From Urbifossiella limnaea (GTDB lineage: Bacteria; Planctomycetota; Planctomycetia; Gemmatales; Gemmataceae): a DNA stretch of 64,000 nt. The translations under genes and the position numbers were made by a program. The stretch spans positions 2,092,322 to 2,156,321 of the forward strand of contig NZ_CP036273.1 of NCBI RefSeq assembly GCF_007747215.1, written 5' to 3'. Within the stretch, counting starts at the first letter, position 1; every line of letters begins with the position of its first letter. Shown here piece after piece: positions 27,229 through 60,543 of this stretch. The notes under the pieces are model-generated. The model was not told the DNA's origin. It was given only the letters and a program-made list of their open reading frames with translations, and ran no database searches.

Positions 27229-27278
27229 TCCTCGGGTGTTAACCCGCGGGTCGTAGGTTCGAATCCTTCCGGAGGACG
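27229..27278 (+). other. tRNA-like 3' half (possible attachment-site scar)
   Basis: The bases from CTCGGGTGTTAACC through GGTTCGAATCC to GGAGGA look like the anticodon arm, T-arm (with one mismatch in the stem) and 3' acceptor strand of a tRNA, possibly with anticodon GTT. No matching 5' half or D-arm pairs with it upstream, so it is not a functional gene. Partial tRNA ends are typical left-overs of integrases that insert at tRNA 3' ends. A coding sequence missing its 5' end starts directly after it. Confidence 0.4.
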
Positions 27279-27893
27279 TTCCCGAACCTGCCGGAAGCGC
27301 GCGAGCACTGGATGTTCGAGAAGTTCCTCGCGGCCGGGATCGCCATCGCCGGCGTGGACGTGGGCGAGTCGTCCGGCAGCCCGAAGGGGCGCGAGGTCTA
27401 TTCGGCGCTCTACAAGGAACTCGTCTCCAACCGGAACTTCGCGGAGAAGCCCGTGCTGCTGGCGCGGAGCCGCGGCGGGCTGATGCTCTACAACTGGGCG
27501 GCGGAGAACGCCGACTAGGTCGCCGGGATCGCGGGCATCTACCCGGTGTGCGACCTGCGGAGCTACCCGGGGCTGGAGAAGGCGTGCGGGGCCTACGGGC
27601 TGACCCGCGCCGAACTGGAGCAGCAACTCGACCGGCACAACCCGGTCTCGCGGCTCGCGCCGCTGGCCAAGGCGGGCGTGCCGATCTTCCACATCCACGG
27701 CGACGCGGACACCGTCGTGCCGCTGAAGGACAATTCGGAGGAAGTGGCGAAGCGGTACGAGAAGCTCGGCGGCAAAATGGAGCTGAAGGTCGCCCGGGGG
27801 CAGGGCCACAACCTCTGGGAGGGCTTCTTCCGGTGCCAGGAGTTGGTGGACTTCGTCCTCGCCCGCTCCGCACCCGCGAAGGCACCGAAGTAA
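27279..27893 (+). pseudogene. Alpha/beta hydrolase, 5'-truncated and with an in-frame stop
   Basis: The frame begins mid-domain (FPNLPEAREHWMFEKFL) directly after the tRNA-like end and continues with GVDVGESSGSPKG, SRGGLMLYNWAAEN, GIYPVCDLRSYPG, and FHIHGDADTVVPL with GQGHNLWEGFF. These supply the nucleophile-elbow region, the catalytic aspartate (GDAD) and the histidine (GHN) of an alpha/beta hydrolase or esterase. The elbow reads ARSRGG. The first strands with the oxyanion hole are missing. A TAG at 27516-27518 then splits the frame. Both defects point to a dead gene. Confidence 0.8.
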
Positions 27894-28924: not shown

Positions 28925-30265
28925 ATGCTATCCGTGTTCGGAACTCGCACGTCCTCCGGTGGTTACGCCTCGCGCCGGGACTTCTTGAAGGTCGGCGCGC
29001 TGGGCCTGGGCGGGCTTTCACTACCGGGACTGCTGAGGGCCGAACGGGCGGCCGGGATCGGGCGGTCCCACAAGGCCGTCATCATGATCTACCTGGTGGG
29101 CGCGCCGCCGCACCAGGACATGTACGACCTCAAAATGGACGCCCCGGCGGAGATCCGCGGCCCGTTCAAGCCCGTCAACACGAACGTGTCCGGCATCCGG
29201 ATCTGCGAGCACCTGCCGAAGCTGGCATCGATCATGGACAAACTCGTCCCGCTCCGGTCGGTGTACGGGTCGCCGAGCGGGGACCACGACTCGTTCATCT
29301 GCTACACCGGCCGCACGGTGCAGAAGCAACCGCCGGGCGGGTGGCCGTCCCTCGGTTCGACCGTCTCGAAGGTGCTCGGCCCGTCGGAAGGGTCGGTGCC
29401 GCCGTTCTTCGGCCTCGCCCCCGACGCGGGGCACCCGCCCTACGGGTCGCCCGGCCACCCCGGGTTCCTCGGCGTCGCCCACGGCGCGTTCCGCCCGTCG
29501 GGTCCGATCCGCCAGGACATGGTCCCGAACCCGAGCAACGCGGTTCACCTCTCGGACCGGACAAGCCTCCTGAAGGAGTTCGACCGCCTCCGGAGTGATC
29601 TCGGCACGAAGGGAACGTTCGACGGGGTGGACGCGCTGCGGCGCCAGTCGCTCGAGATCATGACCTCGAGCAAGATGGTGGACGCGCTCGACTTGTCGAA
29701 GGAGCCGCTGGCGGTCCGCGAGTGGTACGGCAAGGGCGACCCCAAGAACTACGGGGACGGCGCCCCGCGGAACCTCGAACACTTCCTCATGGCGCGCCGG
29801 CTGGTCGAGGCCGGGGCCCGTGTGGTGACGCTGAACTTCGGCCGGTGGGACTTCCACAGCGACAACTTCGGCGAGTGCAAGAACACGCACTTCCCGTGGT
29901 TCGATCACGGGATGCACGCGCTGATTACGGACCTCCACGACCGGGGCCTCGACAAGGATGTCGCGGTCGTGGCCTGGGGCGAGTTCGGCCGCACGCCGCA
30001 GATCAACAAGGACGCCGGGCGCGACCACTGGCCGCAGGTGGGCGGCGGGATCCTCGCGGGCGGCGGGTTCCGTACCGGGCATGTGATCGGCGCCACCGAC
30101 CGTACGGGCGGGACCATCACCCGTCGGCCCGTTCACTTCGGCGAGGTGCACGCCACGCTCTACCGTCACTTCGGGATTGACCCTCATGCCGTGACACTCC
30201 CGGACTTCAGCGGCCGGCCACACTACCTGGTGGACGAGTGGCAGGCGCTGCCCGAAGTCCTCTGA
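28925..30265 (+). CDS. DUF1501 family exported protein with altered first core block
   Basis: A 446-residue DUF1501 protein. ASRRDFLKVGALGLGGLSL at residues 15-33 is a clear Tat signal. The C-terminal block GEFGRTPQINKDAGRDHW is fully conserved. The first block, however, reads GAPPHQDMYD (residues 59-68) where relatives have GGxSQ, so the usual serine is proline. If that serine is catalytic or metal-binding, this paralogue has changed or lost that function. The ATG at 28925 follows GAAGGA; a TTG at 28910 is less likely. A second DUF1501 gene follows 101 bases later. Confidence 0.9.
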   Translation: MLSVFGTRTSSGGYASRRDFLKVGALGLGGLSLPGLLRAERAAGIGRSHKAVIMIYLVGAPPHQDMYDLKMDAPAEIRGPFKPVNTNVSGIRICEHLPKLASIMDKLVPLRSVYGSPSGDHDSFICYTGRTVQKQPPGGWPSLGSTVSKVLGPSEGSVPPFFGLAPDAGHPPYGSPGHPGFLGVAHGAFRPSGPIRQDMVPNPSNAVHLSDRTSLLKEFDRLRSDLGTKGTFDGVDALRRQSLEIMTSSKMVDALDLSKEPLAVREWYGKGDPKNYGDGAPRNLEHFLMARRLVEAGARVVTLNFGRWDFHSDNFGECKNTHFPWFDHGMHALITDLHDRGLDKDVAVVAWGEFGRTPQINKDAGRDHWPQVGGGILAGGGFRTGHVIGATDRTGGTITRRPVHFGEVHATLYRHFGIDPHAVTLPDFSGRPHYLVDEWQALPEVL

Positions 30266-30366: not shown

Positions 30367-31833
30367 GTGCTGAACGTGCTCGGTTCGAGCAAGCGACTCC
30401 GTGACGGCTTCACCCGGCGCGAGTTGATCCAGGCCGGCGCCGGTGCCGTGGTGGGATTGGGGCTCACGGGTCTGACGCGGACCCCTGCCACGGCCGGCGG
30501 GGGCACCCGGCCCCGGCACTTCGGCAAGGCGAAGAGCGTCATGGTTCTGTACCTCTACGGGGCCATGAGCCAGATCGACACGCTCGACCCCAAGCCCGAC
30601 GCCCCGGCGGAAATCCGTGGGCCGTTTCGCTCGATGGCGACGAAACTGCCGGGCGTGCGACTGGGCGAACACCTGCCCCTTCTTGCGGACCGACTCGACC
30701 GGGTCACGATGGTCCGGTCGATGAACCACCCCGAGCCGATTCACAACGTCGCCAACACGGTCACCGGCATCAGCAGGACCGACGTGCCGATGGAACTGAA
30801 CCAGCGCCACCCCCGGCACTGGCCGTTTTTCGGGTCGGTCATCGACTACCTCGAAACCACACAGGCCGGCCGGGCCGGCGACCCGCTCATTCCCCGCAAC
30901 GTCATTCTGCCCTGGCGGCAGAGCGCCACCGCCCCCGACAAGCGGGCCGGGTTCTTCGGCGGGTTCCTCGGCTCGCGGTACGACCCGACGCCCCTCGAGT
31001 TTCGCGGCAAGGGAACGGTGCAGGACTGTGTCGAGAAGTTCAACCCGTACTGCGGCGTCGACCCCCGCGACGCGTACAACTTCCCGGCAACGGATTTCGG
31101 CCCCCAGATGACCGTCGACCGCTTCCGCGCCCGCCGCGGCCTGCTCGACGAACTCGACGACCGGCAGCGGTACCCCGCGGGCACGGCCCCGCTCCAGTCG
31201 TTCGGTGAGTTACAACAGATCGGGCTGAGGCTGTGCGATTCCGCCACGCTCCCGGCCGCGCTCAACCTCGCCCGCGAACCGGCCAAGCTGCGGGAGCGGT
31301 ACGGCCACCACCTGTTCGGTCAGTCGACGCTGCTCGGCCGCCGGATGATCGAGGCCGGCTCACGGGTCGTCACGGTCCTCTGGGACGAGTTCGCCGCCAA
31401 CAACTCGGCGTGGGACACCCACAACAACCAGACGCGCCGACTCGGCCGCGAGTTGTGTCCAGGCTTCGACCGGTCCGTCTCCGCCTTGCTCGACGACCTT
31501 GAGCAGCGGGGCCTTCTCGACGAAACGCTCGTGGTGTGCCTCACCGAACACGGCCGAACTCCGCAAGCCGAGGGAAACGGCGATGGCCGGAACCACTGGT
31601 CCGGCGCGTACAGCATCATGCTGGCCGGCGCCGGCGTCGCCCGCGGTAACGTCGTCGGCTCGAGCGACCGCCAGGGCGCCTTCGTGAAGACCCGCCCGGT
31701 CAATCCCAAGGACATCCTTCACAGCATCTATCACCTTCTTGGCATCGACGTCGAACGCTCCATCCCCGACCGTCAGGGCCGACCGATGCCGCTCGTCGAC
31801 GGAGGCCATCTCGTACCCGAGATCCTCGCGTAG
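30367..31833 (+). CDS. DUF1501 family exported protein
   Basis: A 488-residue DUF1501 protein. The GTG start follows GGAGG and gives the N-terminal FTRRELIQAGAGAVVGLGLT (residues 15-34) its normal Tat position. Core blocks are GAMSQIDTLD at residues 65-74, with the serine present, and TEHGRTP followed by DGRNHW, so both the phenylalanine of EFGRTP and the aspartate of GRDHW are changed. An open frame extends 43 codons upstream but has no ribosome site. It is followed by a hypothetical membrane protein after 55 bases. Confidence 0.88.
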   Translation: MLNVLGSSKRLRDGFTRRELIQAGAGAVVGLGLTGLTRTPATAGGGTRPRHFGKAKSVMVLYLYGAMSQIDTLDPKPDAPAEIRGPFRSMATKLPGVRLGEHLPLLADRLDRVTMVRSMNHPEPIHNVANTVTGISRTDVPMELNQRHPRHWPFFGSVIDYLETTQAGRAGDPLIPRNVILPWRQSATAPDKRAGFFGGFLGSRYDPTPLEFRGKGTVQDCVEKFNPYCGVDPRDAYNFPATDFGPQMTVDRFRARRGLLDELDDRQRYPAGTAPLQSFGELQQIGLRLCDSATLPAALNLAREPAKLRERYGHHLFGQSTLLGRRMIEAGSRVVTVLWDEFAANNSAWDTHNNQTRRLGRELCPGFDRSVSALLDDLEQRGLLDETLVVCLTEHGRTPQAEGNGDGRNHWSGAYSIMLAGAGVARGNVVGSSDRQGAFVKTRPVNPKDILHSIYHLLGIDVERSIPDRQGRPMPLVDGGHLVPEILA

Positions 31834-31888: not shown

Positions 31889-32518
31889 TTGACGGTTTCT
31901 TCTTGGTCGGGGCGGTTGCTGCCCGGGCCGCTGCTGACCGGGTACACACGCAAATTCCTGAACCTCCAATCGAGCCCGCCGGACCGACCGCGGCGACCGC
32001 CTCGCCCGTCCTCGCCCCGCCCGGCGCGACTGCTGGTTGCGGCCTCACTCCTTTTCGGGATTTCGATCGGCGGCGGGGCGGTTGCGCTGTTCGCGGCACG
32101 GTCGGCTCCGCGATCGGCCCCGGGACCACGCAAACTGGCGTACGACTTCCGCGCCCCCTTACCCGGGTCGGTGGCCGACGTGTCCGGCACCGGGACCGGG
32201 TTCACCCACCGGCTACCGGGAACCGGAGCAGGCCTCCCGGCGAGCGACCCGAATCTGCGACTCGTCCTACCCTCGGGGCGACTCGAGGTCACGGCCACGG
32301 GCAGTGACCTGAACACCCTGCTCCGGCTCGAACAGGCCGAGTTCCCCGGCGTCCGGTTGGCCGACCTCGGGTTCACAGGGGGTGAGGATTTCGAGGTCGC
32401 GGCCGAGATCCGCGGCGACGGCCTGATCGTGCGCGAGTACCAGACGACCGATGCCTGGGAAACCGCTTCGTGGACCCCGCAGACGTGGACCGCACCCGTC
32501 ACCGCGACGCAGAAGTGA
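31889..32518 (+). CDS. Hypothetical membrane-anchored protein, possibly truncated
   Basis: An open frame of 209 codons with one likely transmembrane helix (LLVAASLLFGISIGGGAVAL, about residues 48-67) after a proline- and arginine-rich N-terminus. The outer part contains YDFRAPLPGS, then GTGFTHRLPGTGAG and GVRLADLGFTGGEDFEV, which looks like the opening of a lectin-like beta domain. It ends soon after, in a tryptophan- and threonine-rich tail, so it may be a shortened gene. The TTG start is uncertain. It lies 24 bases before the metallophosphoesterase gene. No family is assigned. Confidence 0.45.
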   Translation: MTVSSWSGRLLPGPLLTGYTRKFLNLQSSPPDRPRRPPRPSSPRPARLLVAASLLFGISIGGGAVALFAARSAPRSAPGPRKLAYDFRAPLPGSVADVSGTGTGFTHRLPGTGAGLPASDPNLRLVLPSGRLEVTATGSDLNTLLRLEQAEFPGVRLADLGFTGGEDFEVAAEIRGDGLIVREYQTTDAWETASWTPQTWTAPVTATQK

Positions 32519-32542
32519 CACACCCCGCACCAGGAGTCCCGA

Positions 32543-33562
32543 ATGAAACGGCTCGGATTCGCACTGTTCGTGATCCCGCTCGGTGTGGTGGCGGCCCTAC
32601 TCACCACCCCGCCGCTCGCGATCGCGGCACCCGATGGCCCGGAACCGCTCACCTTCATCGCGACCTCCGACTCGCACTACGTCTCGTCCAAGAACCTGGA
32701 ACGCATCGATCGGAACAAGGCGACCATCGAGCGAATGAACAACATCCCCGGTACGCCGTGGCCGGCGAAACTGGGCGGTGGGAAGGTCGGCACGCCCCGC
32801 GGCGTCCTGGCGCTGGGCGACCTGATCGACGACGGGGACAAGCGGGACGAGACTCCCCTGCAATGGCGCCACTTCGAAAAGCAGTTCGGGCTCGACGGCA
32901 CCGACGGACTCCTGAAGTACCCGGTGTTCGAAGGGTGGGGGAACCACGACGGCCCGCCGGTCGGGAAGGAGAAGTTCGGGTTCAGTGTCCAGTCGAAAAT
33001 CAAGGAGCGGAACGCGCTCCGGAAGAAGGCCGGCCGCATCGGCACCGTGTCCGAGAACGGCCTGCACTACTCCTGGGATTGGGACACGGTGCACTTTGTT
33101 CAAGCCAACCTGTACCCGGCCGACAGGCAGCACGCGAAGGTGCGCTACTCGCTCCCGTGGCACGACCCCCAAGGGGCGCTCGCGTTCGTGAAGGAAGACT
33201 TGAAGCGCAACGTCGGCGACAGCGGCCGACCGGTCGTCGTGATGTCGCACTGCGGGGTGGACACCGACTGGTGGCACCCCGAGGATTGGGCCGCGTTCTA
33301 CAAGGCGGTGAAGCCGTACAACGTGATCGCCTACTTCTACGGGCACAGCGGGACCGGGTTGCGGAAGTACAAACCCGAGGGCGAGGAGAAGGCCCTGGAC
33401 TGTGTCAACACCGGGCAGACGGAGAAAGGGTTCTTCGTGGCCGAGGTCACTGCGAAGCGACTCCGCGTGGGGTTCCAGGCCAAGAAAGACCCGAAGGCGA
33501 CGGAGAACATCGTGTGGGAGTGGAAGTACCTGCTCGAGAAGCCGCTGACCGCCGGCAAATAG
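32543..33562 (+). CDS. Exported calcineurin-like metallophosphoesterase
   Basis: A 339-residue phosphoesterase with an N-terminal signal peptide (residues 1-28). Metal-site motifs are seen in order: DSHY near residue 43, GDLIDDGD near 93, GNHDG near 133, SHCG near 235 and GHSG near 264. The last motif normally reads GHxH; here the second histidine is absent, so one metal ligand may be missing or replaced. A well-placed ribosome site (AGGAG) precedes the ATG. It heads a short-spaced run with the sialate esterase and the glycosidase. Confidence 0.85.
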   Translation: MKRLGFALFVIPLGVVAALLTTPPLAIAAPDGPEPLTFIATSDSHYVSSKNLERIDRNKATIERMNNIPGTPWPAKLGGGKVGTPRGVLALGDLIDDGDKRDETPLQWRHFEKQFGLDGTDGLLKYPVFEGWGNHDGPPVGKEKFGFSVQSKIKERNALRKKAGRIGTVSENGLHYSWDWDTVHFVQANLYPADRQHAKVRYSLPWHDPQGALAFVKEDLKRNVGDSGRPVVVMSHCGVDTDWWHPEDWAAFYKAVKPYNVIAYFYGHSGTGLRKYKPEGEEKALDCVNTGQTEKGFFVAEVTAKRLRVGFQAKKDPKATENIVWEWKYLLEKPLTAGK

Positions 33563-33618
33563 TCGAGCCCCGCGACGTGCTGGTTCGAACCGTTCCTGTG
33601 ATCCGGAGGACCTGACAC

Positions 33619-35214
33619 GTGTGTCCGCTCCGTCCCACGCGTTGCGTCACAATACTGGCCTGTCTCGTGCTCAACTGTCTGGCGAGCGAACGGGCGCGTG
33701 CCGACGTGCGGCTGCCGGCGCTGTTCGCGGACCACGCCGTCCTCCAGCGGGACAAGCCGCTCCCCGTATGGGGCTGGGCCGAACCCGGCGAGAAGGTGAC
33801 GGTGAAACTCGGCACGGAGGGCGGCGACGTCGCCGCCGGGAAGGACGGGCGGTGGCAGGTCACGCTCAAGCCGCAGCCCGTCTCGAAGGAGCCACTCACA
33901 CTGACCGTCGCGGGGAAGAACACGATCACGGTCAAGGACGTGCTCCTCGGCGACGTGTGGCTCTGCGGCGGCCAGTCGAACATGGAGTGGGGACTGGGCG
34001 GGTGCGACGCGCCGGAGGACATCAAGGCCGCCGACCTGCCGCTGGTCCGCCAGTTCGGGGTCGAACTCCACTTCGCCACGACCCCGCAGGCCGACGTAAG
34101 GGGCCGGTGGGCGGTGTGCACGCCGCAGACCGCCCCGGGGTTCACCGCGGTCGGGTTCTACTTCGCCCGCCGCGTCCACAAGGAGACCGGCGTCCCGATT
34201 GGTCTGCTGAGGTCGTGCGTCGGCGGCACCAACATCGAGCTGTGGATGTCGCAGGACACCCTGATGAACACGCCCGCGCTGGCCGGGTACGGGAAACTCA
34301 TGCGCGAGTCGCTCGCCACCCACCAGAAGGATCTCGCGGCCGCCCTGCCCGGGGTCGAGGAGTGGGCCGCGAAGTCGCGCGACGCTCTGAAGGCCGGGCG
34401 GCCGGTGCCGCTGCCACCCGCGATCCCGGAGTTCCCGTTCGGGGAGAAGATGTTCCGCCCGCGGTGCGTCACGCTCCACAACGGCATGATCGCCCCGCTG
34501 GTGCCGTTCGCCCTGCGCGGGGTGCTGTGGTATCAGGGTGAGAACAACGCCGGCGGCGCGGCCGACGGCTTGCAATACGTCGAGAAAAAGCGGGCGATGC
34601 TGGCCGATTGGCGGAAGTGGTTCGGCGACCCCAACCTGCCCTTCTACTTCGTGCAACTTGCCGGATGGCAAAAACCCTCCGACCAGCCAGCCGGCGGCGA
34701 CGGGTGGGCGCACGTCCGCGACGCGCAGCGGAAATGCCTGACGATCCCGCACACCGGGATGGCGGTCGCCACCGACGTCGGGGACGCGGACGACATCCAC
34801 CCGAAGAACAAGGCCGATGTGGGCGACCGGCTGGCGAGGTGGGCGCTCGTGAGCGAGTACGGCAAGACGGTCGTCCCGTCCGGGCCGCTGTTCCGGGCGC
34901 TGAAGATCGAGGGTAACAAGGCGGTCGTCGAGTTCGACCACGTCGGGGCCGGGTTGATGGTCGGCCGGAAGGACGGCCGCAAGCCGGCGGACGAACTGAC
35001 GGACGGCAAGCTCGCCCGGTTCGCAATCGCCGGCAAGGACAAGAAGTGGGTTTGGGCGAACGCCGTGATCGTGGGCGACACGGTCGTCTGCACCCACCCC
35101 GACGTCCCCAACCCGGTGGCCGTGCGGTACGCCTTCACCATGAATCCGGTCGGGGCAAACCTGTACAACCGCGACGGCCTCCCCGCGTCGCCGTTCCGCA
35201 CCGACGACTGGTAA
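33619..35214 (+). CDS. Sialate O-acetylesterase-type SGNH esterase
   Basis: A 531-residue exported esterase. The GTG start gives a signal peptide ending near ERARA. After an N-terminal beta domain (RLPALFADHAVLQRDKPLPV), the SGNH blocks appear: GDVWLCGGQSNMEW near residue 113, WYQGENNAGG near 305, and DDIHPKNKADVGDRLA near 392, which carries the catalytic Asp and His. This is the standard sialate O-acetylesterase/acetylxylan-type layout and normal length. It lies 56 bases after the phosphoesterase and 13 bases before the glycosidase gene, suggesting removal of acetyl groups from a glycan that the next enzyme degrades. Confidence 0.9.
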   Translation: MCPLRPTRCVTILACLVLNCLASERARADVRLPALFADHAVLQRDKPLPVWGWAEPGEKVTVKLGTEGGDVAAGKDGRWQVTLKPQPVSKEPLTLTVAGKNTITVKDVLLGDVWLCGGQSNMEWGLGGCDAPEDIKAADLPLVRQFGVELHFATTPQADVRGRWAVCTPQTAPGFTAVGFYFARRVHKETGVPIGLLRSCVGGTNIELWMSQDTLMNTPALAGYGKLMRESLATHQKDLAAALPGVEEWAAKSRDALKAGRPVPLPPAIPEFPFGEKMFRPRCVTLHNGMIAPLVPFALRGVLWYQGENNAGGAADGLQYVEKKRAMLADWRKWFGDPNLPFYFVQLAGWQKPSDQPAGGDGWAHVRDAQRKCLTIPHTGMAVATDVGDADDIHPKNKADVGDRLARWALVSEYGKTVVPSGPLFRALKIEGNKAVVEFDHVGAGLMVGRKDGRKPADELTDGKLARFAIAGKDKKWVWANAVIVGDTVVCTHPDVPNPVAVRYAFTMNPVGANLYNRDGLPASPFRTDDW

Positions 35215-35227
35215 CCCCGGAGCCGAA

Positions 35228-37777
35228 ATGCGAACCGTCCCCCTCTCCAGTGCCGCGCTCGCCGTGTGCCTTCTCGCCGTCCCGACGGGAGCGGCGGAGC
35301 CGTTGCTCGCTCCGCAGCAGCTGCTCGACCGCGAGACGTTCTGGGACAACCGCGACTGGGACTGGTACCAGGCGAACGTGCCGTTCTTCGAGTGCCCCGA
35401 TCCCGACATCCAGACGACGTACTACTACCGCTGGGAGCTGCTGACCAAGCACCTCACCTACGGCTCCCCGAACTCCGGGTACTCGTTCACCGAGTTCATC
35501 GACCGGCCGTTCTGGTCCGGGGCGTACGGCGCGATCTCGTGCCCGGCCGGGCATCAACTTTACGAGGCTCGCTGGCTCCGCGATCCGAAGATCGCCCGCG
35601 ACTACGGTCGCTACTGGCTCCGCACGCCCGGCGCGCAGCCGCGGAACTACAGCACGTGGCTCGCCGACGCCGTCTGGGCCGTTCACCGCGTCCACCCGGA
35701 CGACGCACTCGTCACGGACCTGCTCCCCGACCTGAAGAAGAACCACGAGGGCTGGGAGAAGCGGCACTTCGTCGCGGACGTGGGGCTGTTCTGGCAGACC
35801 GGCCACGACGACGGGATGGAGTTCAACATCAACAGCCGGCAGACCAAGGACATCCTCCGCGGCGCGCCCGGCTACCGGCCCACCATGAACGCGTACCTCT
35901 GGGCCGACGCACTCGCCATCGCCCGGGTCGCGGACCTCGCCGGGGACAAGGCTACGGCCGGTACCTACCGCGCGAAGGCCGCGGGGTTGAAGGAGAACCT
36001 CCAGAAGAAGCTCTGGGACCCGAAGCGGCAGTTCTTCTTCCCCATGTCCCAGCGCGACGAGGAGGTCGACGGCTTCAAGGTGAAGGCGCTCACCCTCACG
36101 CACCAGACCGGGCGGCACGCGGGTAGCGCGTTCGGCCGCGAGCTGATCGGCTACGTGCCGTGGCAGTTCTCGATGCCGGACGCCAAGAAGGGGTACGAGG
36201 TCGCGTGGAAGAAGTTGACGGACAAGGACGGGTTCGCGGCCCCGTTCGGCCCGACCACGGTCGAGCGGAACGACCCGATGTTCCTGCTCAAGAAGACGTG
36301 CTGCTGGTGGAGCGGGCAGTCGTGGCCGTACGCCACCAGCCAGACGCTCAAGGCCCTCGCGAACGTCCTTCAGGAGTACGAACAGGACGCGGTCACGAAG
36401 GCGGACTACCTGAAGCTGCTCACGACGTTCGCGAAGACGCACCGGAAGAACGGCAAGCCGTACCTCGCGGAGGCGTGCCACCCGGACACCGGCTCGTTCG
36501 AGGGGCACGACGGGTACAACCACAGCGAGCACTACTTCCACTCGTCGTTCAACGACCTGGTCGTCACCGGCCTGGTCGGGCTGACCCCGCGGGACGACGA
36601 CACGCTCGAACTGAAGCCGCTCGCGCCGGCGGACTGGGCGTACTTCGCACTCGACGAGGTGCCGTACCGCGGGCACCTCGTCAGCATCCAGTGGGACCGC
36701 GACGGCACCCGGTACAGGCGCGGGAAGGGGCTGCGCGTCTTCGCCAACGGAAACGAGATCGCCGCGTCCGAAACGCTCGCCCCGCTGGCGGTGAAGCTGC
36801 CGGCCGCGCCGAAGCCCGCGGGGCGCGGGGCCGCGGGGCCGGTCAACTTCGCGGTGAACAACGACGGGACGTACTACCCGCGGGTGCTCGCGTCGTTCTC
36901 GCACCCGAAGACGCCGCCGTCGAGGTTGACCGACGGCAACTACTGGTACCTCCGCGACCCGCCGAACCGCTGGACGTGTGAGGGGTCTCCCAACGCGAGC
37001 GACTCCGTGGTAATCGAGTTCGGCGCGAAACGCGTCATCCACACCGCGAAGCTCTACTTCCTCGACGACGAAAAGGGCGTCGTTCCGCCCGCGAAGTTCG
37101 ATATCGAATCCTGGGACGGGAAGGCGTGGCAGCCGGTCTCGACGCAGACCCGCGCCCCGGAGAAGCCGACCGGTCGCCGGGCGAACGTGATCCGGTTCCC
37201 CGCACTCGCGACCGAGAAAGTGCGGGCGGTGCTGCTCCACGCCAACGGCGGCAGGTCGGGCCTGACCGAGTTCGAGGTCTGGGGTGACGCCAAACTCCCA
37301 CTCGCCGACCCGCCGCACCCGGCGGGGAACCTCGCGTACAACCCCGGCGACAAGGCGTTCCCGAAGGCCTCCGCCTCCTATGCGGACCGCTTCGGGGGGA
37401 GGCCGATGAGCGCCATCGACGGGAAGACCAACTTCCTCCCCAGCCCGACCAACCGCTGGACCAGTTACGAGTCGCCCAACGCGACCGACTGGCTCGATGT
37501 GGACTTCGGTTCCGAGAAAGAGTTCGCCCGCGTCGAACTGGCGATCTACGACGACCGCGGCGGGGTGCAGCCGCCCTCGAAGTACGAGGTCGAGTTCTGG
37601 GACGGGAAGGCGTGGCGGCCGGTGGCGAACGCCAAGAAGATGCCCGAGAAGCCGACCGGCAGCCAGTTCAACCAGGTCCTGTTCGACCGCGTGAATGCGA
37701 GCAAGGTACGGGTCGTGTTCACCCACGCGGGCATGGCCCGCAGCGGGGTGTCCGAGATGTTCGTCTGGAACGAGTGA
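35228..37777 (+). CDS. Exported glycoside hydrolase with two C-terminal discoidin-like domains
   Basis: An 849-residue protein with a Sec signal (residues 1-22). Residues about 35-530 form an (alpha/alpha)6-type glycosidase domain like the mannosylglycerate-hydrolase/GH63-related group: GAYGAISCPAGHQLYEARWL, WQTGHDDGMEFNINSRQ, CCWWSGQSWPYATSQT and DGYNHSEHYFHSSFNDLVVT are typical sugar-cleft patterns. Two F5/8-type (discoidin-like) domains follow, about 560-685 and 710-845; each ends with the same style of segment (WDGKAWQPV and WDGKAWRPV). The exact substrate cannot be read from sequence. It overlaps in context with the sialate esterase 13 bases upstream. Confidence 0.85.
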   Translation: MRTVPLSSAALAVCLLAVPTGAAEPLLAPQQLLDRETFWDNRDWDWYQANVPFFECPDPDIQTTYYYRWELLTKHLTYGSPNSGYSFTEFIDRPFWSGAYGAISCPAGHQLYEARWLRDPKIARDYGRYWLRTPGAQPRNYSTWLADAVWAVHRVHPDDALVTDLLPDLKKNHEGWEKRHFVADVGLFWQTGHDDGMEFNINSRQTKDILRGAPGYRPTMNAYLWADALAIARVADLAGDKATAGTYRAKAAGLKENLQKKLWDPKRQFFFPMSQRDEEVDGFKVKALTLTHQTGRHAGSAFGRELIGYVPWQFSMPDAKKGYEVAWKKLTDKDGFAAPFGPTTVERNDPMFLLKKTCCWWSGQSWPYATSQTLKALANVLQEYEQDAVTKADYLKLLTTFAKTHRKNGKPYLAEACHPDTGSFEGHDGYNHSEHYFHSSFNDLVVTGLVGLTPRDDDTLELKPLAPADWAYFALDEVPYRGHLVSIQWDRDGTRYRRGKGLRVFANGNEIAASETLAPLAVKLPAAPKPAGRGAAGPVNFAVNNDGTYYPRVLASFSHPKTPPSRLTDGNYWYLRDPPNRWTCEGSPNASDSVVIEFGAKRVIHTAKLYFLDDEKGVVPPAKFDIESWDGKAWQPVSTQTRAPEKPTGRRANVIRFPALATEKVRAVLLHANGGRSGLTEFEVWGDAKLPLADPPHPAGNLAYNPGDKAFPKASASYADRFGGRPMSAIDGKTNFLPSPTNRWTSYESPNATDWLDVDFGSEKEFARVELAIYDDRGGVQPPSKYEVEFWDGKAWRPVANAKKMPEKPTGSQFNQVLFDRVNASKVRVVFTHAGMARSGVSEMFVWNE

Positions 37778-37884
37778 ACGCTTCACCTTTGCGCCGTGCC
37801 GCCCATCCGACGGGGCCGTTGCCGCAACAGCGAGCCCCACTACACCGGTGGAGTGGTTGCCGCGGTCGACGAGAGGAATGGACA

Positions 37885-40098
37885 ATGAGGCGGCTCTCGA
37901 CGTGCATGGCTTTCTGGCTTGCGCTCGCCGGCACGGCTCCCGCTGCCGACCACCGAACAGGCCGCGACAAGGTGTTGGCCGATGCCGAGTCCCGGTTGAA
38001 ATCCATCTACGAGAAACGGGACTTCGCACCGACCACCTTTCCGGGCAAATGGCTCGCGGACAGTTCCGGCTACTGGGTGCTGGAGCCATCCAAACCGGGC
38101 GCCGAACCTGAAGTCGTCAAGTACGACGCGACGAACGGGAAGCGATCCGTACTCATCGGTGCGGATCAACTTGTCGTGCCCGGCTCGAAGCAGAGGCTGT
38201 TCGTTCAGCGGTGCTTCCAGACGCCCGTCGAACACACGTTCTGCCTGGAAGCGCGAACCGGCAACTGGCTGTTCGACTCGAAGTCGGGCGATCTCCAAAA
38301 ACTGCCCGCCGAGGTGCCGGCCGGCCTGTCCGCGGGGGCGTTTTCTCCTCGAGTCGATCGCATCGTCGTCCGGCGGGGCCGGAATCTCGCCGTGGTCGAT
38401 GCCGCGACGGGGCGCGTCACGCCGCTGACCTCAGACGACGACCGGGGCCAACTAGACAACTACGCCCCGACTTGGAGCCCCGACGGCCGTCGGGTTGCGT
38501 ACGTCCAGTCGGACTCCACGAAGGTTCGTACCCGACCGGTGCTCCGGCCGACGGACCCGACGTATCCCGAAGTGGCGCACGTCCCGTTCGCCCGTGTCGG
38601 CACACCCATTCCGACGCTTCGCGTGGGCGTCGTGGATCACCAGGGCGGGACCACGCGGTGGGTGAAACTGCCTGCCGATCCGGGCACGTGTTACATCAAC
38701 GACATCAGTTGGGCCGGGAACTCGACGGAACTCCTAATCGAGTTACTCAGCCGATCCCGCGACAACCGCAAGTTCCTGCTCGCCAACGTCGAGTCCGGAG
38801 AGGTCGCGACGGCGTACGAGGAAACCGACCCCGCCTGGGTCGACGCGAGCTATTCCGCCAACGCGGGGCTCGAGTGGATTCGCGACGGCAAGGAGTTTGT
38901 CCTGCTCAGCGAGCGCGACGGCTGGCGGCAGGCCTACGTGCTTTCGCGAGACGGCAAACAACGGACGCTTCTGACGAAAGACAAGTCCGACATCATCGCC
39001 CGCGGCCCGGTCGACGAGCAAGGCGGCTGGTTCTACTACCTCGCATCGCCGAAGAACGCGACCCAACGCTACCTGTACCGCATCCGGCTCGACGGGAAGA
39101 GCGATCCCGAGCGGGTGACGCCCGCGGATCAGCCCGGAACCCACAGCTACGACTTCTCGCCGGATCGGAAGTGGGCGTTTCACACCTATTCCACGTTCGA
39201 CAAGCCGCCGGTCGTCGACCTGGTGCGGCTCTCCGGCCATCACTCGGAACGGGTCCTGGAGGCGAACGAAGAGGTTCGCAGTCGAGCGACCCCGCTGATC
39301 ACTCGGCCGACCGAGTTCTTGAAACTCGACATCGGGAACGGTGCGGTGATGGACGCCTGGATGATCAAGCCGCGCGACTTCGACGAGACGAGGAAGTACC
39401 CGGTCTTCGTGTTCGTGTACGGCGAGCCGCACGGCCAGACGGTCCTCGACGACTGGGCCGGCGGCCAGAACCATTCGATGTTCCACCGCATGATCGCGGA
39501 CCTCGGGTACCTGGTCGTCTCAATGGACGGTCGCGGCACGCCGGCGCCGAAGGGGGCCGCCTGGCGTCGTGCCGTGTACGGCAGCCTCGGCCCGCTCTCC
39601 ACCGAGGAGCAGGCGGCGGGGGTGAAGGCGTTGGGCCGCACGCGGTCGTACGTCGATCTGTCGCGGGTGGGCATCTGGGGGTGGAGCGGCGGCGGCTCGA
39701 ACACCTTGAACGCGATGTTCCGCAAGCCGGACGTCTACCACGTCGGCATCGCGGTGGCACCCAAGCCGCGCCCGGAACTGTACAACGCGTGGTTCCAGGA
39801 GATCTTCATGCGGACCCCCGACGTGAACCCGGACGGCTACCGCAAGGCCGCGGCCATCAACTTCGCCGAAGGTTTGAAGGGGGACCTGCTGATCGTGCAC
39901 GGCACCGGCGAAACCAACACCCACCTTCAGATCACCGAAAGTCTCGTGGACCGACTGATCGAGTTGGGCAAGCGCTTCGACTACATGGCCTACCCCAACC
40001 GCGACCACGGCTTGCGCGAGGGGAAGGGCACCGCGGTCCACCTCCGGATGCTGATGACGCGATACTTGATCGACCATCTTCCCCCGGGTCCGCGGTGA
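37885..40098 (+). CDS. Exported S9 family prolyl oligopeptidase-type peptidase
   Basis: A 737-residue peptidase of the dipeptidyl peptidase IV type, with signal peptide (residues 1-21), an eight-bladed N-terminal propeller (WSPDGRRVAYVQSDS is one blade) and a C-terminal alpha/beta hydrolase domain. The nucleophile lies in GWSGGGS near residue 599 and the histidine in NRDHGL near 708. The acid motif reads HGTGETNTH where the family has HGTxDDNxH, so glutamate stands in for the catalytic aspartate. The ATG at 37885 follows GAGAGGA. It is 107 bases after the glycosidase gene, so it may be separately expressed. Confidence 0.88.
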   Translation: MRRLSTCMAFWLALAGTAPAADHRTGRDKVLADAESRLKSIYEKRDFAPTTFPGKWLADSSGYWVLEPSKPGAEPEVVKYDATNGKRSVLIGADQLVVPGSKQRLFVQRCFQTPVEHTFCLEARTGNWLFDSKSGDLQKLPAEVPAGLSAGAFSPRVDRIVVRRGRNLAVVDAATGRVTPLTSDDDRGQLDNYAPTWSPDGRRVAYVQSDSTKVRTRPVLRPTDPTYPEVAHVPFARVGTPIPTLRVGVVDHQGGTTRWVKLPADPGTCYINDISWAGNSTELLIELLSRSRDNRKFLLANVESGEVATAYEETDPAWVDASYSANAGLEWIRDGKEFVLLSERDGWRQAYVLSRDGKQRTLLTKDKSDIIARGPVDEQGGWFYYLASPKNATQRYLYRIRLDGKSDPERVTPADQPGTHSYDFSPDRKWAFHTYSTFDKPPVVDLVRLSGHHSERVLEANEEVRSRATPLITRPTEFLKLDIGNGAVMDAWMIKPRDFDETRKYPVFVFVYGEPHGQTVLDDWAGGQNHSMFHRMIADLGYLVVSMDGRGTPAPKGAAWRRAVYGSLGPLSTEEQAAGVKALGRTRSYVDLSRVGIWGWSGGGSNTLNAMFRKPDVYHVGIAVAPKPRPELYNAWFQEIFMRTPDVNPDGYRKAAAINFAEGLKGDLLIVHGTGETNTHLQITESLVDRLIELGKRFDYMAYPNRDHGLREGKGTAVHLRMLMTRYLIDHLPPGPR

Positions 40099-40444
40099 CG
40101 GCGAAGCCGCCGGACGTGGCGAAAGCGGGCGGCTGGCGCCGTTTCCTCCAAGACGTGACACCTCCCTCCCCGGAGTCGCCACAGGAATCGCCGCTGCGCA
40201 GTGCCCGCGCTGGTGTTCGGGCTCGCGCCCCTCGCAGCCGCCGCGTTTGTGTCTCGGCAGCGCACCGCGCCGCACAACAGATCGAGAGGAAAGTGTGACC
40301 GAGTACGGGGGCGCTCGACCGAAGGATTCCCTGAACGCGAAGATCGTGGTTGACGGAGCGAACGTGCAGGTAGAGACTGTTTTCACGCTGACCCAACTTC
40401 CCCATTTCCGACCGCCGGGGAACGATTCGCGCCCGGAGACCATC
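40099..40444. other. Intergenic stretch without a gene
   Basis: No family motif or convincing start is seen in any frame. The downstream esterase's frame is open back to 40247, but this part has no homology signs and precedes the signal peptide. The stretch probably holds the promoter of the esterase gene. Confidence 0.5.
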
Positions 40445-41668
40445 ATGCTGCCCCGAGCGATGCTGTTCGTAGCCAGCGCCGTGATGCTGTCCGTGCTCGG
40501 TTCGAGACCGGTCGAAGCGGCCGAGCCACCCAAGCAAAAGCTCCAGATCTACATCATGGCCGGCCAGTCGAACATGGTCGGGCACGCCAATTACATCACC
40601 CTTCCGGCCCTGCTCACTGCGGAGGAACCCGGGGTCAAGCAACTGGCGAAGTTGATCTTCAAAGACGGTGCGATCGCGCCCGCGGATGCCCGGGACATGC
40701 TCGAAATCCGCGTCAAACGCGACGCACTGGACGGCGACTTGCGTGCCAAGAAGATCACGGGTGACGACAAGGTCGCGGGGGCACAAGTCGAGTTGAAGGA
40801 CCTCCAGGCGAAGGTCGATGCCCGGGCCAAGAAGATCAAGGACGCGTTCGTCGTCTCTAAACGGGTTTACATCACGTCCATTGCCGACGGGCACAAACGG
40901 TCGGGGCCGCTGACCATGGGGTACGGTGCCAACCCCGAGAAAATCGGCCCGGAACTCGGGTTCGGGCTCTCGCTCGAGCAGAAGACCGACGCCCCGATCC
41001 TGCTGATCAAAGCCTCGTGGGGCGGCAAATCTCTTCACTACGACTTCCGTCCCCCGTCCGCCGGCCCGTATGAGCTGAGCAAGGCGCAAGCCAACGGCAA
41101 AGACGCACAGAAGATCAAGGACAACGCCGGCCTCAACTACCGGATGATGAACGAGGCCGTGCGGGACGTGCTCAAGGACCTGAAGACGCACCACCCCGAG
41201 TACGACGCCGCGGCCGGTTACGAGATCGCCGGGTTCGTCTGGTTCCAGGGCTTCAACGACCAGTTCGATCCGGCGTTCCACGGCAACTACAAGACCAACA
41301 TGATCGCTTTCGTGAAGGACGTGCGGAGCGAGTACCAGGTTCCGACCTTGCCGTTCGTCATCGGCGTGCTGGGGACCAGCGCGACCAAAGAAGCCGTGGA
41401 CAAGAACCCGGTGTCCCTCGGCCAGCGGGCCGCCGCCGCGGCACCCGAGTTCAAGGATAACGTCGCGAGCGTCGAGAGCTACCCGTTCTTCGCCCTGGAC
41501 GCGCTCAAAATGTGGACCGACGGGACGTGGAGTAAGCAGCCGGTCGAGTTCTCCCAGATCGGCAGCGACCGCCCCTACCACTACATGGGCAGCGGCAAGT
41601 TCTTCGTACGCCTGGGTGACGCGCTGGCGACCGCCATGGTCGATTTGCGAAACAAACAGAAGCGGTAG
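40445..41668 (+). CDS. Exported SGNH-type carbohydrate esterase
   Basis: A 407-residue esterase of the sialate O-acetylesterase/acetylxylan esterase SGNH group. The ATG at 40445 gives a proper signal peptide (LFVASAVMLSVLGSRPVEAA). Blocks are IYIMAGQSNMVG near residue 40, WGGKS (oxyanion region), WFQGFNDQFD near 269, and YHYMGSGKFFVRLGDA near 379, which holds the histidine. A lysine-rich helical insert (about residues 85-145) lies between the first two blocks and is larger than usual. It precedes a DUF1501 gene by 60 bases. Confidence 0.87.
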   Translation: MLPRAMLFVASAVMLSVLGSRPVEAAEPPKQKLQIYIMAGQSNMVGHANYITLPALLTAEEPGVKQLAKLIFKDGAIAPADARDMLEIRVKRDALDGDLRAKKITGDDKVAGAQVELKDLQAKVDARAKKIKDAFVVSKRVYITSIADGHKRSGPLTMGYGANPEKIGPELGFGLSLEQKTDAPILLIKASWGGKSLHYDFRPPSAGPYELSKAQANGKDAQKIKDNAGLNYRMMNEAVRDVLKDLKTHHPEYDAAAGYEIAGFVWFQGFNDQFDPAFHGNYKTNMIAFVKDVRSEYQVPTLPFVIGVLGTSATKEAVDKNPVSLGQRAAAAAPEFKDNVASVESYPFFALDALKMWTDGTWSKQPVEFSQIGSDRPYHYMGSGKFFVRLGDALATAMVDLRNKQKR

Positions 41669-41728: not shown

Positions 41729-43066
41729 ATGAACATGGCCTCGCGTCCCGTCGCCCGTCGCGACTTTTTCACACTCGGGGGCCTATCCCTCGGGGTTCTG
41801 TGCCCGCTGGGGCTGTCGTTGCCACGAGTCCTGGCGAACGAGTCGAGGAGTCGCGGCAAGAAGCAGATCAACGTCATCTTCCTGTTCCTGCAAGGCGGGG
41901 CCAGTCACGTCGACATGTTCGACATGAAGCCGGACGCGCCAGACGACATCCGCGGGAAGTACTCCCCCGCGGCGACCAACCTGACCGGGTTGCAACTGAG
42001 CGATCAGTTGCCGGGGCTCCGCGCCTGCGCCGACAAGTTCTCCCTGATCCGCTCGATGTACACCACCAAGCCCGTCGACCACGGCGAAGGCGACGTCCAC
42101 CTCATGTGCGGCAGCCCGGTCGACAAAAACCTTCAGGCCCCCGGCATCGGCGCGGTTCTCAGCCTGCAGCAGAAGCTGGACTCCCGCTTCCTCCCGTTCG
42201 TGCACATGGGGAACATGAAGCACCCCTCCCACACCGCCCCCGGGTTCGGCGGGTTCCTCGGCCACCAATACGACCCGTACGTGCTCACCCAGGATCCGAA
42301 TTCGCCGACCTTCGCGGTGCGGGAATTCGAGCCGGTCCCGGAGGTCGATCCGAGCCGACTCGCCGGCCGCCGGACGCTGCTCCGCACACTGGACCGCTAC
42401 CAGGCCGAGCGAGACAGTGCGCCCGAGTCCGCTCGCGCGCGGGACACGTTTACCGAACACGCCTTTCAACTGGCGACCTCGCAGAAGGCCAAGGAGGCGT
42501 TCGACCTGTCGCGCGAGTCGGCGCGGGTCCGCGACACGTACGGGCGCAACCGAGTCGGGCAGGGCATGCTCCTGGCCCGCCGGTTGGTCGAGGCGGGGGT
42601 GCGGTTCGTGACCATTCAGGGGTACGTGGACACCGGGATCTACGCCTGGGACCACCACTGGGGGATCTTCGGACACCTCGACAAGCAGCTACCGATTTAC
42701 GACCGGTGCTATTCCGCCCTGCTGAACGACCTTTCCGACCGCGGGCTGCTCGACACCACGCTCGTCATCACGGCGGGTGAGTTCGGGCGCACCCCGAAGC
42801 TGAACAAGGACAACAAGGGGCCCGGGCGCGACCACTGGTCGAATTGCTTCAGCCTCACGATGGGCGGGGGCGGAGTGAAGACGGGCGTCGTGGTCGGTGC
42901 CAGCGATCGCTTCGGCGCCGTGCCCACAGAACGGCCCGTGTCCGTCGCCGACTTCGTCGCCACGGTCTACCACGCCTTGGGGCTCGACCCGCACGCGGAA
43001 TTCGTGGCGCAAGGGCGGCCGATGAAAATGCTGCCGCACGGCTCCCCGGTTCAAGAACTGTTCTAA
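41729..43066 (+). CDS. DUF1501 family exported protein
   Basis: A 445-residue DUF1501 protein. ARRDFFTLGGLSLGVLCPLG at residues 9-28 is a Tat signal. Core blocks are GGASHVDMFD at residues 56-65 (glutamine of GGxSQ is histidine) and GEFGRTPKLNKDNKGPGRDHW. A GTG at 41690 would add 13 residues; the ATG at 41729 is more ordinary. It is alone: the next gene is the broken propeller-cytochrome gene after 196 bases. Confidence 0.9.
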   Translation: MNMASRPVARRDFFTLGGLSLGVLCPLGLSLPRVLANESRSRGKKQINVIFLFLQGGASHVDMFDMKPDAPDDIRGKYSPAATNLTGLQLSDQLPGLRACADKFSLIRSMYTTKPVDHGEGDVHLMCGSPVDKNLQAPGIGAVLSLQQKLDSRFLPFVHMGNMKHPSHTAPGFGGFLGHQYDPYVLTQDPNSPTFAVREFEPVPEVDPSRLAGRRTLLRTLDRYQAERDSAPESARARDTFTEHAFQLATSQKAKEAFDLSRESARVRDTYGRNRVGQGMLLARRLVEAGVRFVTIQGYVDTGIYAWDHHWGIFGHLDKQLPIYDRCYSALLNDLSDRGLLDTTLVITAGEFGRTPKLNKDNKGPGRDHWSNCFSLTMGGGGVKTGVVVGASDRFGAVPTERPVSVADFVATVYHALGLDPHAEFVAQGRPMKMLPHGSPVQELF

Positions 43067-43262
43067 ATCGCTCCCGCCAAGGGCGGAGTTCGCTGCGTTT
43101 TCCGGGTGCTTTTTGGCGGACACCTGGGACTGGACTCGGAAGTTGGTGCGGGTTTCGAACCAGTCGAACATCAGGTCGAGGAGCTCGCCCATGGTCTGGC
43201 ATCGGTGGTTCCGGGTGACGGCCTCGTGCACCCTCCCCCGATCCAACCGGAGGCGAATCGAG

Positions 43263-45229
43263 ATGACCTTGAGCCGACCCATGTCCCGTGTCGCGGTCGT
43301 GATTTTCGGCGTCACCCTCGTCGCCGCCGCGGGCACTCACGGGTTCGGAGGGGATGCCCGACCGGCCGTCCGACAAGCGGACACCCCACGTCCGCCGACT
43401 CCCGTCGGGCGGCCGTCGCTCGAAAGCCCGCACGCGGCGCCCGTCGCACTTCGTGGCGAACTCGTGTTCGTGGCCAACACGCCGAGTGGCACCCTCGACG
43501 TGATCGACCGCACGGCACGCAAGATCGTGGCGCGTGTGAATGTCGGCGTCGATCCCGTCGGCGTCGCCGTGCGGCCGGACGGCAAGGAAGTGTGGGTGGC
43601 GAACCACGTCTCGGATTCGGTGAGTGTGATCGACATCGACCCTGGCAGCCCGACGTACCTCCAGATCGTAGCCACGGTCCAGGAGTTCGACCCGAAGACC
43701 CGGGGGACCCGGTTCGACGAGCCGGTGGGAATCGCGTTCGCCAGCAACGACAAGGCGTACGTCGCCCTGTCCGCCGAGAACCAGATTGCCGTGATCGACG
43801 TGGCGGCGCGCACGGTCACGAAGCGGTTGACGATCCCGGCGCAGGACCCGCGGGCGATCGCGGTCCGCGGCGACCGGCTCTACGTGATTCCGTTCGAGTC
43901 CAACAACCAGACGCAGCTGTCCGGCGGCGCCGGCGACAAGATCGACGGCAACCTGGTCACGTTCGACGCGTACAAGCACTCCATCCAGAACAACAACGTC
44001 CTGTCGCTCGGCCACGTCGTGGACATCGTCTAGCACCCCCGGGTGCCCGACCGCGACCTGTTCGTGTTCGACACCCGGACCGACGCGCCCGTCGCCACCA
44101 TCGACACGCTCGGCACCTTGCTCCATGGCCTCGCCGTGGATTCGAAGGGGCGCGTCTACATCGCCCAGACCGACGCCCGTAACGACGTGAACGGCCGAGC
44201 CGGGACGAAGAAGCACGGGCTCAAGGAGATGGAGAACCGGGCATTTCTGAACCGGATCTCGAGTGTCGGGTTCGAGGACGATCGCGCGACCGCGCCGCGG
44301 TTCCTCGACCTCGAACCGCTCCCACCGAACCACCCCGCGGCGGGCATGGCGCTGGCGACCCCGTTCGCGGTCCAGGTGAGCGACGACGATTCGACGCTGG
44401 TCGCCACCGCGGCCGCCTCGGACAAGGTCTTCACGGTTGACACCGCCACGGGGGCGGTCCTCGGCCGCGTCGGTGTCGGCGCCGGGCCGCGCGGGATCGC
44501 GCTCGAATCGCGGTCCGGGAAGGCGGCCGAGGCGTGGGTGCTGAACGCCCTCGCCAACACGGTCTCGGTGGTCGATGTGGCCGACGCGAAGAACCCGAAG
44601 GTGGTGGCCACGATCGCCCTGGAAGACCCCACGCACCCGGTTTTTAAGCGTGGGCGAATCGCCTTCAACACGGCGGCCGCGTCCACCACCGGCACGTTCT
44701 CGTGCGCGAGCTGCCACCCGGACGGCCACACCGACCAGTTGCTCTGGGTCCTGGTCACGCCGGTCGTGACCGGCGGCAACCAGATCATGCCCCGCTCGAC
44801 GATGCCGGTCCGCGGCCTGCCTGACACGGCCCCGTTCCACTGGGACGGCATCCCGGGCGACCCGTACTGAGGGATCAACAGCGCGAGCGTTCACAAGGTG
44901 GTCCCGCCCAACAGCCGCGCCGAGACGCCCTCGAGCAGCCCCCGCCACCTGATCGACGGCGGCCTCGCCTCGACCATGCGCCGGGTCGGTGACACGGCGG
45001 TCAACGACGAGAACAAACCCGGCGCGCTGTCCGCGACGGAGCGGGACGACATGGCCCAGTACCTGCTCGGCGTACCGTACCCCCCGGCGCAGCGGCGGGC
45101 GTACACCAACGTCGTCTCGGACCGGGCGAAGACGGTCTTCAAGCAGTTCCACGTCGACGGCGACCTGGAACCGAAACAGCCAACGCCGAACGTTTGCGGG
45201 AACTGTCACCGGATGCCGTTCCTGTGTAC
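43263..45229 (+). pseudogene. Propeller-cytochrome-ankyrin gene, 5' part (disrupted)
   Basis: First part of a gene of about 1106 codons. A signal peptide (VAVVIFGVTLVAAAGTHG) is followed by a YVTN-type beta-propeller (VFVANTPSGTLDVIDRTARK, GVAVRPDGKEVWVANHVSDS) to about residue 460. A haem c motif CASCHPDGH follows at about 481 and a second, CGNCHRMPF, at about 645. Two in-frame stops, TAG at 44031-44033 and TGA at 44868-44870, break the frame without loss of homology on either side. The frame then runs into the IS3-family element at 45230 and resumes at 48366. ATG at 43281 is an alternative start. Such proteins are probably periplasmic; this copy is dead. Confidence 0.85.
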
Positions 45230-45243
45230 GGTGGACCCCATTG

Positions 45244-45249
45244 TCTAGA
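45244..45249. repeat. Target-site repeat TCTAGA flanking the IS1380 element
   Basis: TCTAGA is present at 45244-45249 and again at 47107-47112, directly outside both ends of the element. All or four to five bases of it are the likely target duplication; because it is a palindrome the exact cut cannot be fixed. Confidence 0.75.
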
Positions 45250-54762: not shown

Positions 54763-54776
54763 CCCCGAGGCCCGCC

Positions 54777-60500: not shown

Positions 60501-60543
60501 CGGGGCTCTCGCCTCCGGAGTGGGGTACGGGGGGAGCGACCGG

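Follow-up and report, generated by a model that had tools for sequence, protein, structure and literature searches.

A 64,000-nucleotide stretch of the Urbifossiella limnaea genome (NZ_CP036273.1; genome positions 2,092,322–2,156,321 of a single contig of 7.8 Mb), hereafter the window, was analysed for a set of exported glycan-processing genes. The set is probably a small, labile cluster of carbohydrate-active enzyme (CAZyme) genes, whose core would be a secreted GH142 β-L-arabinofuranosidase and an exported, purple-acid-phosphatase-like phosphoesterase, joined by two acetylesterases. It is an ordinary CAZyme cluster, partly decaying, in which only the recurrent pairing of GH142 with the phosphoesterase is modestly new. 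Pfam searches of 29 window proteins, plus 54237–56246, bore out the initial annotation in that a phosphoesterase, two esterases, a glycosidase with two discoidin domains and an S9 peptidase all lie on the + strand; the phosphoesterase starts at 32543 and not, as had been stated, at 31889. The genes of the set, in window positions, were:

32404–32525, + strand: 3′ remnant of a second phosphoesterase, MPP-A, inside open reading frame 31889–32518 (DNA match to the MPP-A ends of relatives)
32543–33562, + strand: MPP-B, exported metallophosphoesterase, purple-acid-phosphatase-like (PF00149 Metallophos, 7e-7)
33619–35214, + strand: SASA1, exported acetylesterase (PF03629, 1e-23)
35228–37777, + strand: GH142 glycosidase (GH) carrying two discoidin (F5/8 type C) domains at its C-terminus (PF22422, MGH1-like, 3e-81; PF00754, 1e-19)
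about 37885–40098, + strand: S9 (DPPIV-type) peptidase (PF00930/PF00326, 1.5e-50 and 5e-33)
about 40445–41668, + strand: SASA2, exported SGNH esterase (PF03629, 2e-19)
41729–43066, + strand: DUF1501c (PF07394, 2e-98)

By their coordinates, MPP-B and SASA1 are separated by 56 bp and SASA1 and GH by 13 bp; SASA1 thus adjoins GH and SASA2 follows one gene further, SASA being taken as a carbohydrate esterase. Signal-peptide-like N-termini, judged by eye, were seen on GH, S9, SASA2, SASA1 and MPP-B. The best PDB sequence match of SASA1 was 9h4u (1.6e-112), followed by 9ega and 7kmm.

The glycosidase, for which the initial annotation had proposed a family search, was assigned to GH142 through its match to 5mqr (chain residues 651–1102; phmmer E 1.1e-104; 188 of 446 aligned positions identical, 42%), its best solved relative; the GH121 chain 6m5a matched far more weakly (6.7e-12). 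According to the accessible part of PMC7263609, 5mqr is BT_1020, a GH142 β-L-arabinofuranosidase in which Glu694 hydrogen-bonds the bound β-L-arabinofuranose (β-L-Araf), with Tyr702, Gly805, Trp943 and His1019 nearby (in its numbering Glu694 equals the chain index and the other four residues stand one above it). These five residues were aligned with E89, W96, G196, W361 and H438 of GH; four are identical, and the single change in the pocket as described there is that of Tyr702 to W96. Each of the five is conserved in 97% or more of 75 homologues, and so are three further residues identical to BT_1020, namely D195, E198 and E415. By analogy with related (α/α)6 families, for which the same accessible text gives the positions of the general acid and base, D195 and E415 probably occupy these positions. 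Mean conservation was 0.71 in the catalytic part and 0.51 and 0.59 in the discoidin domains. By the similarity of its catalytic (α/α)6 domain to BT_1020, GH is a member of GH142 and a probable β-L-arabinofuranosidase that would remove a plant-type sugar. Of the 59 genomes in the relative set, 6 encode GH at full length (the window's genome is one of them), and it was not found in any of the 5 further genomes of the window's genus; the nearest named homologue comes from a Gemmata metagenome-assembled genome. Spread by plasmids was not supported, as only 7 of 72,556 plasmid records matched, every one below 60% identity.

MPP-B was modelled with a pLDDT of 76, and its best PDB matches were purple acid phosphatases (3e-9). 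Metallophosphoesterases carry the motifs DxH, GDxxD, GNHD, a single H and GHxH, and MPP-B has D43/H45, G92–D93, GNHD at 133–136, H236 and G267–H268. The open reading frame 31889–32518 upstream had no Pfam match, and its segment 32404–32525 is 79–83% identical in DNA, over 112–122 bp, to the 3′ ends of MPP-A in the loci L018, L021 and L032. MPP-A is complete in L021 (1162–2232) and L032 (8843–9922); MPP-A, MPP-B and GH stand in a row in L021, and the contig of L018 starts within MPP-A, followed by MPP-B and GH.

The surroundings of GH homologues were compared in the best 80 of 127 loci. In 11 of the 58 callable rows, one of them the window, a phosphoesterase of the MPP-A/B kind was located within 2.5 kb of GH; these rows span two phyla, Planctomycetota and Verrucomicrobiota. 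The chance expectation was 0.009 from the density of the subfamily (9 copies in 59 genomes, 362 Mb) or 1.1 from all PF00149 genes of the window's genome, rates that were taken from the window's relatives and may differ in Verrucomicrobiota. The count omits 17 rows whose flanks did not reach far enough to call absence, scores L033 as absent (phosphoesterase about 4.5 kb away) and includes the more distant phosphoesterase of L094, missed by the MPP-B query and entered by hand. On the GH tree, from which proteins of up to 780 residues (L021 among them) were excluded, the phosphoesterase label changed 9 times, at least 7 of these changes being forced by starred branches. In the relative set the phosphoesterase subfamily was carried by 3 of the 6 genomes with GH versus 5 of the 53 others (Fisher 0.028). 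The association among glycan genes suspected in the initial annotation was supported to this extent, that phosphoesterase–GH and SASA–GH neighbourhoods recur in relatives. No description of the GH142–phosphoesterase pairing was found in the accessible text of the literature on DUF1501, GH142, planctomycete polysaccharide utilization loci (PULs) and phosphoesterase–GH combinations.

Genes next to GH were tallied from 81 same-strand neighbours within 400 bp, 76 of which were scanned after removal of two fragments of GH (L022, L096), one of an esterase (L017), a protein of 2251 residues (L027) and a near-duplicate (L036). The gene caller was a simple one based on the codon usage of GH genes and missed or split some genes; the tally covers the matches listed for 25 of 94 Pfam families, and DUF1501 may be present among the 76. 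Within these matches Metallophos was commonest (8), followed by GH43, SASA, DUF1559 and Laminin_G_3 with 4 each and by aldose epimerase, periplasmic sugar-binding and DHDPS proteins with 2 each. Sugar-import or epimerase genes directly adjoin GH142 homologues in L044, L086 (YtfQ-like galactofuranose-type binding protein), L043 (AraG-like ATPase), L088 and L089 (aldose epimerase), and an arabinanase-like GH43 occurs in L034. The YtfQ-, AraG- and arabinanase-like NCBIfam matches were below their curated cut-offs; the galactose-1-epimerase subfamily model in L088 was the sole one above. These distant loci with GH43, import genes and aldose epimerases suggest, but do no more than suggest, that arabinose or a furanose like it is released. 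The neighbour in L020 gave a weak metallopeptidase-type match (PF07737/PF06167).

That GH has drifted to a different furanoside or glycoside, such as the β-galactofuranose of microbial or algal walls, is unlikely. It would fit the replacement of the pocket Tyr by Trp, the lack of a GH127-type β-L-Araf enzyme in the genome and the closeness of the L086 binding protein to galactofuranose-binding YtfQ, but it has to be set against the identity of the other four published pocket residues, as far as the source gives them, to those of BT_1020.

The neighbourhood is conserved in part only. In the nearest locus, L017 (GH 92%), MPP-B, SASA1, GH, SASA2 and DUF1501c are kept in order at 90–92% DNA identity, and L017 is the only one of the 80 loci in which all five occur together. 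Window positions 37840–40260, which hold the S9 gene, are reduced to just 341 bp in L017, and the two DUF1501 genes found upstream of the phosphoesterase in the window (DUF1501a and DUF1501b) are absent there. SASA2 and DUF1501c form two 90% DNA blocks in L017 and one 88% block in L067, where about 6 kb, including a sulfatase and a further DUF1501 gene, separate the pair from GH. The other loci mostly have different GH neighbours. The S9 peptidase is therefore not part of the conserved set and, as far as seen, is a neighbour in the window's genome only. The initial annotation had named neighbours shuffled in close relatives as the result that would speak against its polysaccharide-use locus, and such shuffling was largely found, since the nearest relative lacks S9 and DUF1501a/b beside GH, L067 is rearranged and most homologues lie among other genes. 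Further features of the window were:

27276–27893: remnant of an α/β-hydrolase gene (homologue in L018, 3990–5861)
about 28925–30265, + strand: DUF1501a (PF07394, 6e-75; RR-type signal), the upstream member of a tandem pair
30367–31833, + strand: DUF1501b (PF07394, 5e-79)
43113–45248, + strand: interrupted β-propeller/cytochrome-type gene read in a single frame, two in-frame stops (44031, 44868), CxxCH-type motifs present; a probable pseudogene
45449–47026, − strand: transposase (DDE_Tnp_1_4; Pfam)
47168–48298, − strand: transposase (rve/HTH_21; Pfam)
54237–56246, + strand: a further Metallophos gene, some 17 kb 3′ of GH, missed by the MPP-B protein search of the genome
58008–63510, − strand: DUF6288 gene and third SASA gene, 20 kb from GH
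60544–63510, − strand: the third SASA gene itself, with Laminin_G_3 and DUF2341 (Pfam)

In L018, the homologue of the hydrolase remnant is a hydrolase–SASA fusion directly 3′ of GH, and in L028 a DUF6288 gene precedes GH.

The two transposase genes just downstream of the set are in line with the rearrangements. Together with the MPP-A remnant, the interrupted propeller gene, the inversion of window positions 58041–63458 (DUF6288 and third SASA gene) upstream of GH in L067 and a concentration of DUF1501 genes described below, they could also be read as a chance assembly of divergent DUF1501 paralogues, transposases and glycan genes left behind in a rearranging region, sharing no function beyond that of GH. 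This reading is held to be improbable, because phosphoesterase and SASA genes recur beside GH in other families and phyla. Clustering of SASA genes at the locus somewhat exceeds chance: 3 of the genome's 12 lie within 27 kb, a number that 167 of 20,000 random sets also reached.

The DUF1501 genes said to bound the set are present at 30367 and 41729; upstream stands a tandem pair instead of one gene, and such flanks are not notable given the genome's 126 DUF1501 genes. Genome-wide hidden Markov model rows were merged by hand (DUF1501 from 128 to 126, PSD1 from 73 to 71, SASA from 16 to 12, sulfatase from 42 to 37; two of the removed rows were below the cut-off and inside DUF1501 genes), and the rows of S9 (42, one below the cut-off) and PSD4 (17) were left unmerged. 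Nowhere in the genome are DUF1501 genes packed more densely than here, with 12 in 67 kb (genome 2,078,263–2,145,909), 9 of them in the window (66–53594); in 2000 random placements the densest 70 kb contained 5.4 genes on average and 10 at most. DUF1501 genes on both sides of the set are explained by this density. In their BLAST-aligned parts the 9 window copies share about 27–39% identity with one another, which rules out recent tandem duplication and marks the cluster as an old assembly.

Proximity of DUF1501 to SASA, sulfatase, PSD1, PSD4 and S9 genes was assessed by circular-shift permutation. Within 3 kb of DUF1501 were 51 of 71 PSD1 genes (6.3 expected), a count reached by none of 2000 shifts. 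In contrast, SASA (1 of 12; 1.07 expected), sulfatase (3 of 37; 3.4 expected) and PSD4 genes (1 of 17; 1.5 expected) were at chance level, and S9 genes were mildly enriched (9 of 42; 3.8 expected; count reached by 15 of 2000 shifts). Within 10 kb, 6 of 12 SASA genes were found versus 3.0 expected (163 of 2000 shifts as many), or 4 of 10 versus 2.5 expected with this locus removed. Near the 80 GH homologues DUF1501 occurred about once per 85 kb, in no excess over the genome average of about one per 62–70 kb. The permutation and this density rule out DUF1501 as a general partner of glycan genes, and the suggestion in the initial annotation that DUF1501 proteins act on the same glycans was not upheld; owing to the proximity to PSD1 and the chance-level association with SASA and sulfatases, the hint is weak, the SASA2–DUF1501c pair excepted, for which alone such a partnership is possible. 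The flanking DUF1501 genes are largely incidental, save for DUF1501c, which stays with SASA2.

All three DUF1501 proteins have RR-type (Tat-like) N-termini, judged by eye. DUF1501c was modelled with a pLDDT of 74.7 and aligned to the alkaline phosphatase PafA (VIA Z 21.6, rmsd 4.3, 284 aligned), followed by nucleotide pyrophosphatases/phosphodiesterases and sulfatases, the latter being ranked first by Foldseek. The model thus has an alkaline-phosphatase-superfamily fold, from which the activity cannot be read. Sulfatases match PF00884 and carry the formylglycine motif C/S-x-P-x-R; the motif was not seen by eye in the DUF1501c alignment, and only DUF1501 reached 1e-3 in Pfam. H118 of DUF1501c, invariant in 16 of 16 sequences and placed by eye near the position of the alkaline-phosphatase-type Thr/Ser/Cys nucleophile, is a possible clue to DUF1501 chemistry. 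E351 and H369 are likewise invariant.

That the stretch is a true planctomycete polysaccharide-use locus, all of whose genes including DUF1501 act on one glycan, is accordingly quite doubtful: the common direction and export signals, the conservation of SASA2–DUF1501c in L017 and L067, the phosphatase/sulfatase fold of DUF1501c and the three clustered SASA genes would fit it, but DUF1501 genes keep genome-wide to PSD1 and not to SASA or sulfatases, are at background density around GH homologues and, as DUF1501a/b, are missing with S9 from the nearest relative, and the genome has no GH43 or GH127.

Several observations weigh against the CAZyme cluster favoured here. From the MPP-A remnant and the order MPP-A, MPP-B, GH in L021 and L018, MPP-A has most likely been deleted in the window, leaving only MPP-B, and MPP-B reads GHSG, so that the final His of GHxH, usually a metal ligand, is missing; the same His is missing in MPP-B of L017, L018 and L021 and kept in MPP-A of L021 and L032. 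The SASA1 copy of L017 contains three in-frame stops, which may reflect decay or an assembly error. By these three features the set may be decaying. No such phosphoesterase was nearby in 47 of the 58 callable rows, 3 of the 6 genomes with GH in the relative set do not carry the subfamily, and in genome G024 its member lies on a different contig from GH. Inheritance of the phosphoesterase label as a block was unsupported, 84 of 500 shuffles having as few as 9 changes. Finally, a search of the window's whole genome gave no GH43 and no GH127, which makes arabinose use thin.

If the cluster nevertheless works as a unit, its genes may be jointly regulated and its products could act in the following order. 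GH would be anchored by its discoidin domains to a glycan or glycoprotein of plant or algal origin, the esterases would strip acetyl groups and the phosphoesterase phosphate esters, GH would cleave terminal β-L-Araf in its pocket, and the freed sugar would then be imported. A bolder proposal, rather improbable at present, is that a GH142 branch with two discoidin domains (Planctomycetota, Verrucomicrobiota, Armatimonadota, Gemmatimonadota) and the exported phosphoesterase act outside rhamnogalacturonan II on a phosphorylated and acetylated β-L-arabinofuranoside not yet recognised as a substrate, SASA2–DUF1501c being an esterase–phosphatase module for the same material; DUF1501 would then gain its first assignable substrate. 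The analysis corrects an attractive over-reading, as DUF1501 flanks say little in a genome with so many copies, and provides a lead for testing in the GH142–phosphoesterase pair that recurs in environmental bacteria. The sole conserved DUF1501 pair, SASA2–DUF1501c, offers a way into the function of an abundant, uncharacterised family.

Compared with known systems, the locus has no SusC/SusD pair of the Bacteroidota-type PUL among the scanned window proteins, including 54237–56246. The initial annotation was thus right about an exported cluster for glycan breakdown that lacks this pair, though without GH43 and GH127 it is not a full arabinan-use system. DUF1501–PSD1/PSCyt pairs of Planctomycetes, seen here for most PSD1 genes, differ from the locus in that its three DUF1501 genes have no PSD1 within 3 kb. 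The GH121 β-L-arabinobiosidase HypBA2 (6m5a, Bifidobacterium longum) is, in the accessible part of PMC7263609, of related fold and an extracellular β-L-Araf enzyme combined with an importer, in a cluster with GH43, GH127 and transporter genes, the first two of which the window's genome lacks; its similarity to GH is also much the weaker. According to the accessible text of PMC7922503, GH142 is found together with further families for rhamnogalacturonan II, mostly in Bacteroidetes; the window's genome has no GH43 or GH127. BT_1020 of Bacteroides thetaiotaomicron shares with GH 42% identity in the catalytic domain and the residues E89, G196, W361 and H438; its GH142 part is at the C-terminal end of the chain (651–1102 of 1108), whereas that of GH is N-terminal and followed by the discoidin domains. 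Planctomycete CAZyme clusters are, as far as the accessible text of PMC11131199 goes, frequent and functionally uncharacterised, and the locus, with a single glycoside hydrolase, resembles them in its co-localised CAZymes outside a Bacteroidota-type PUL.

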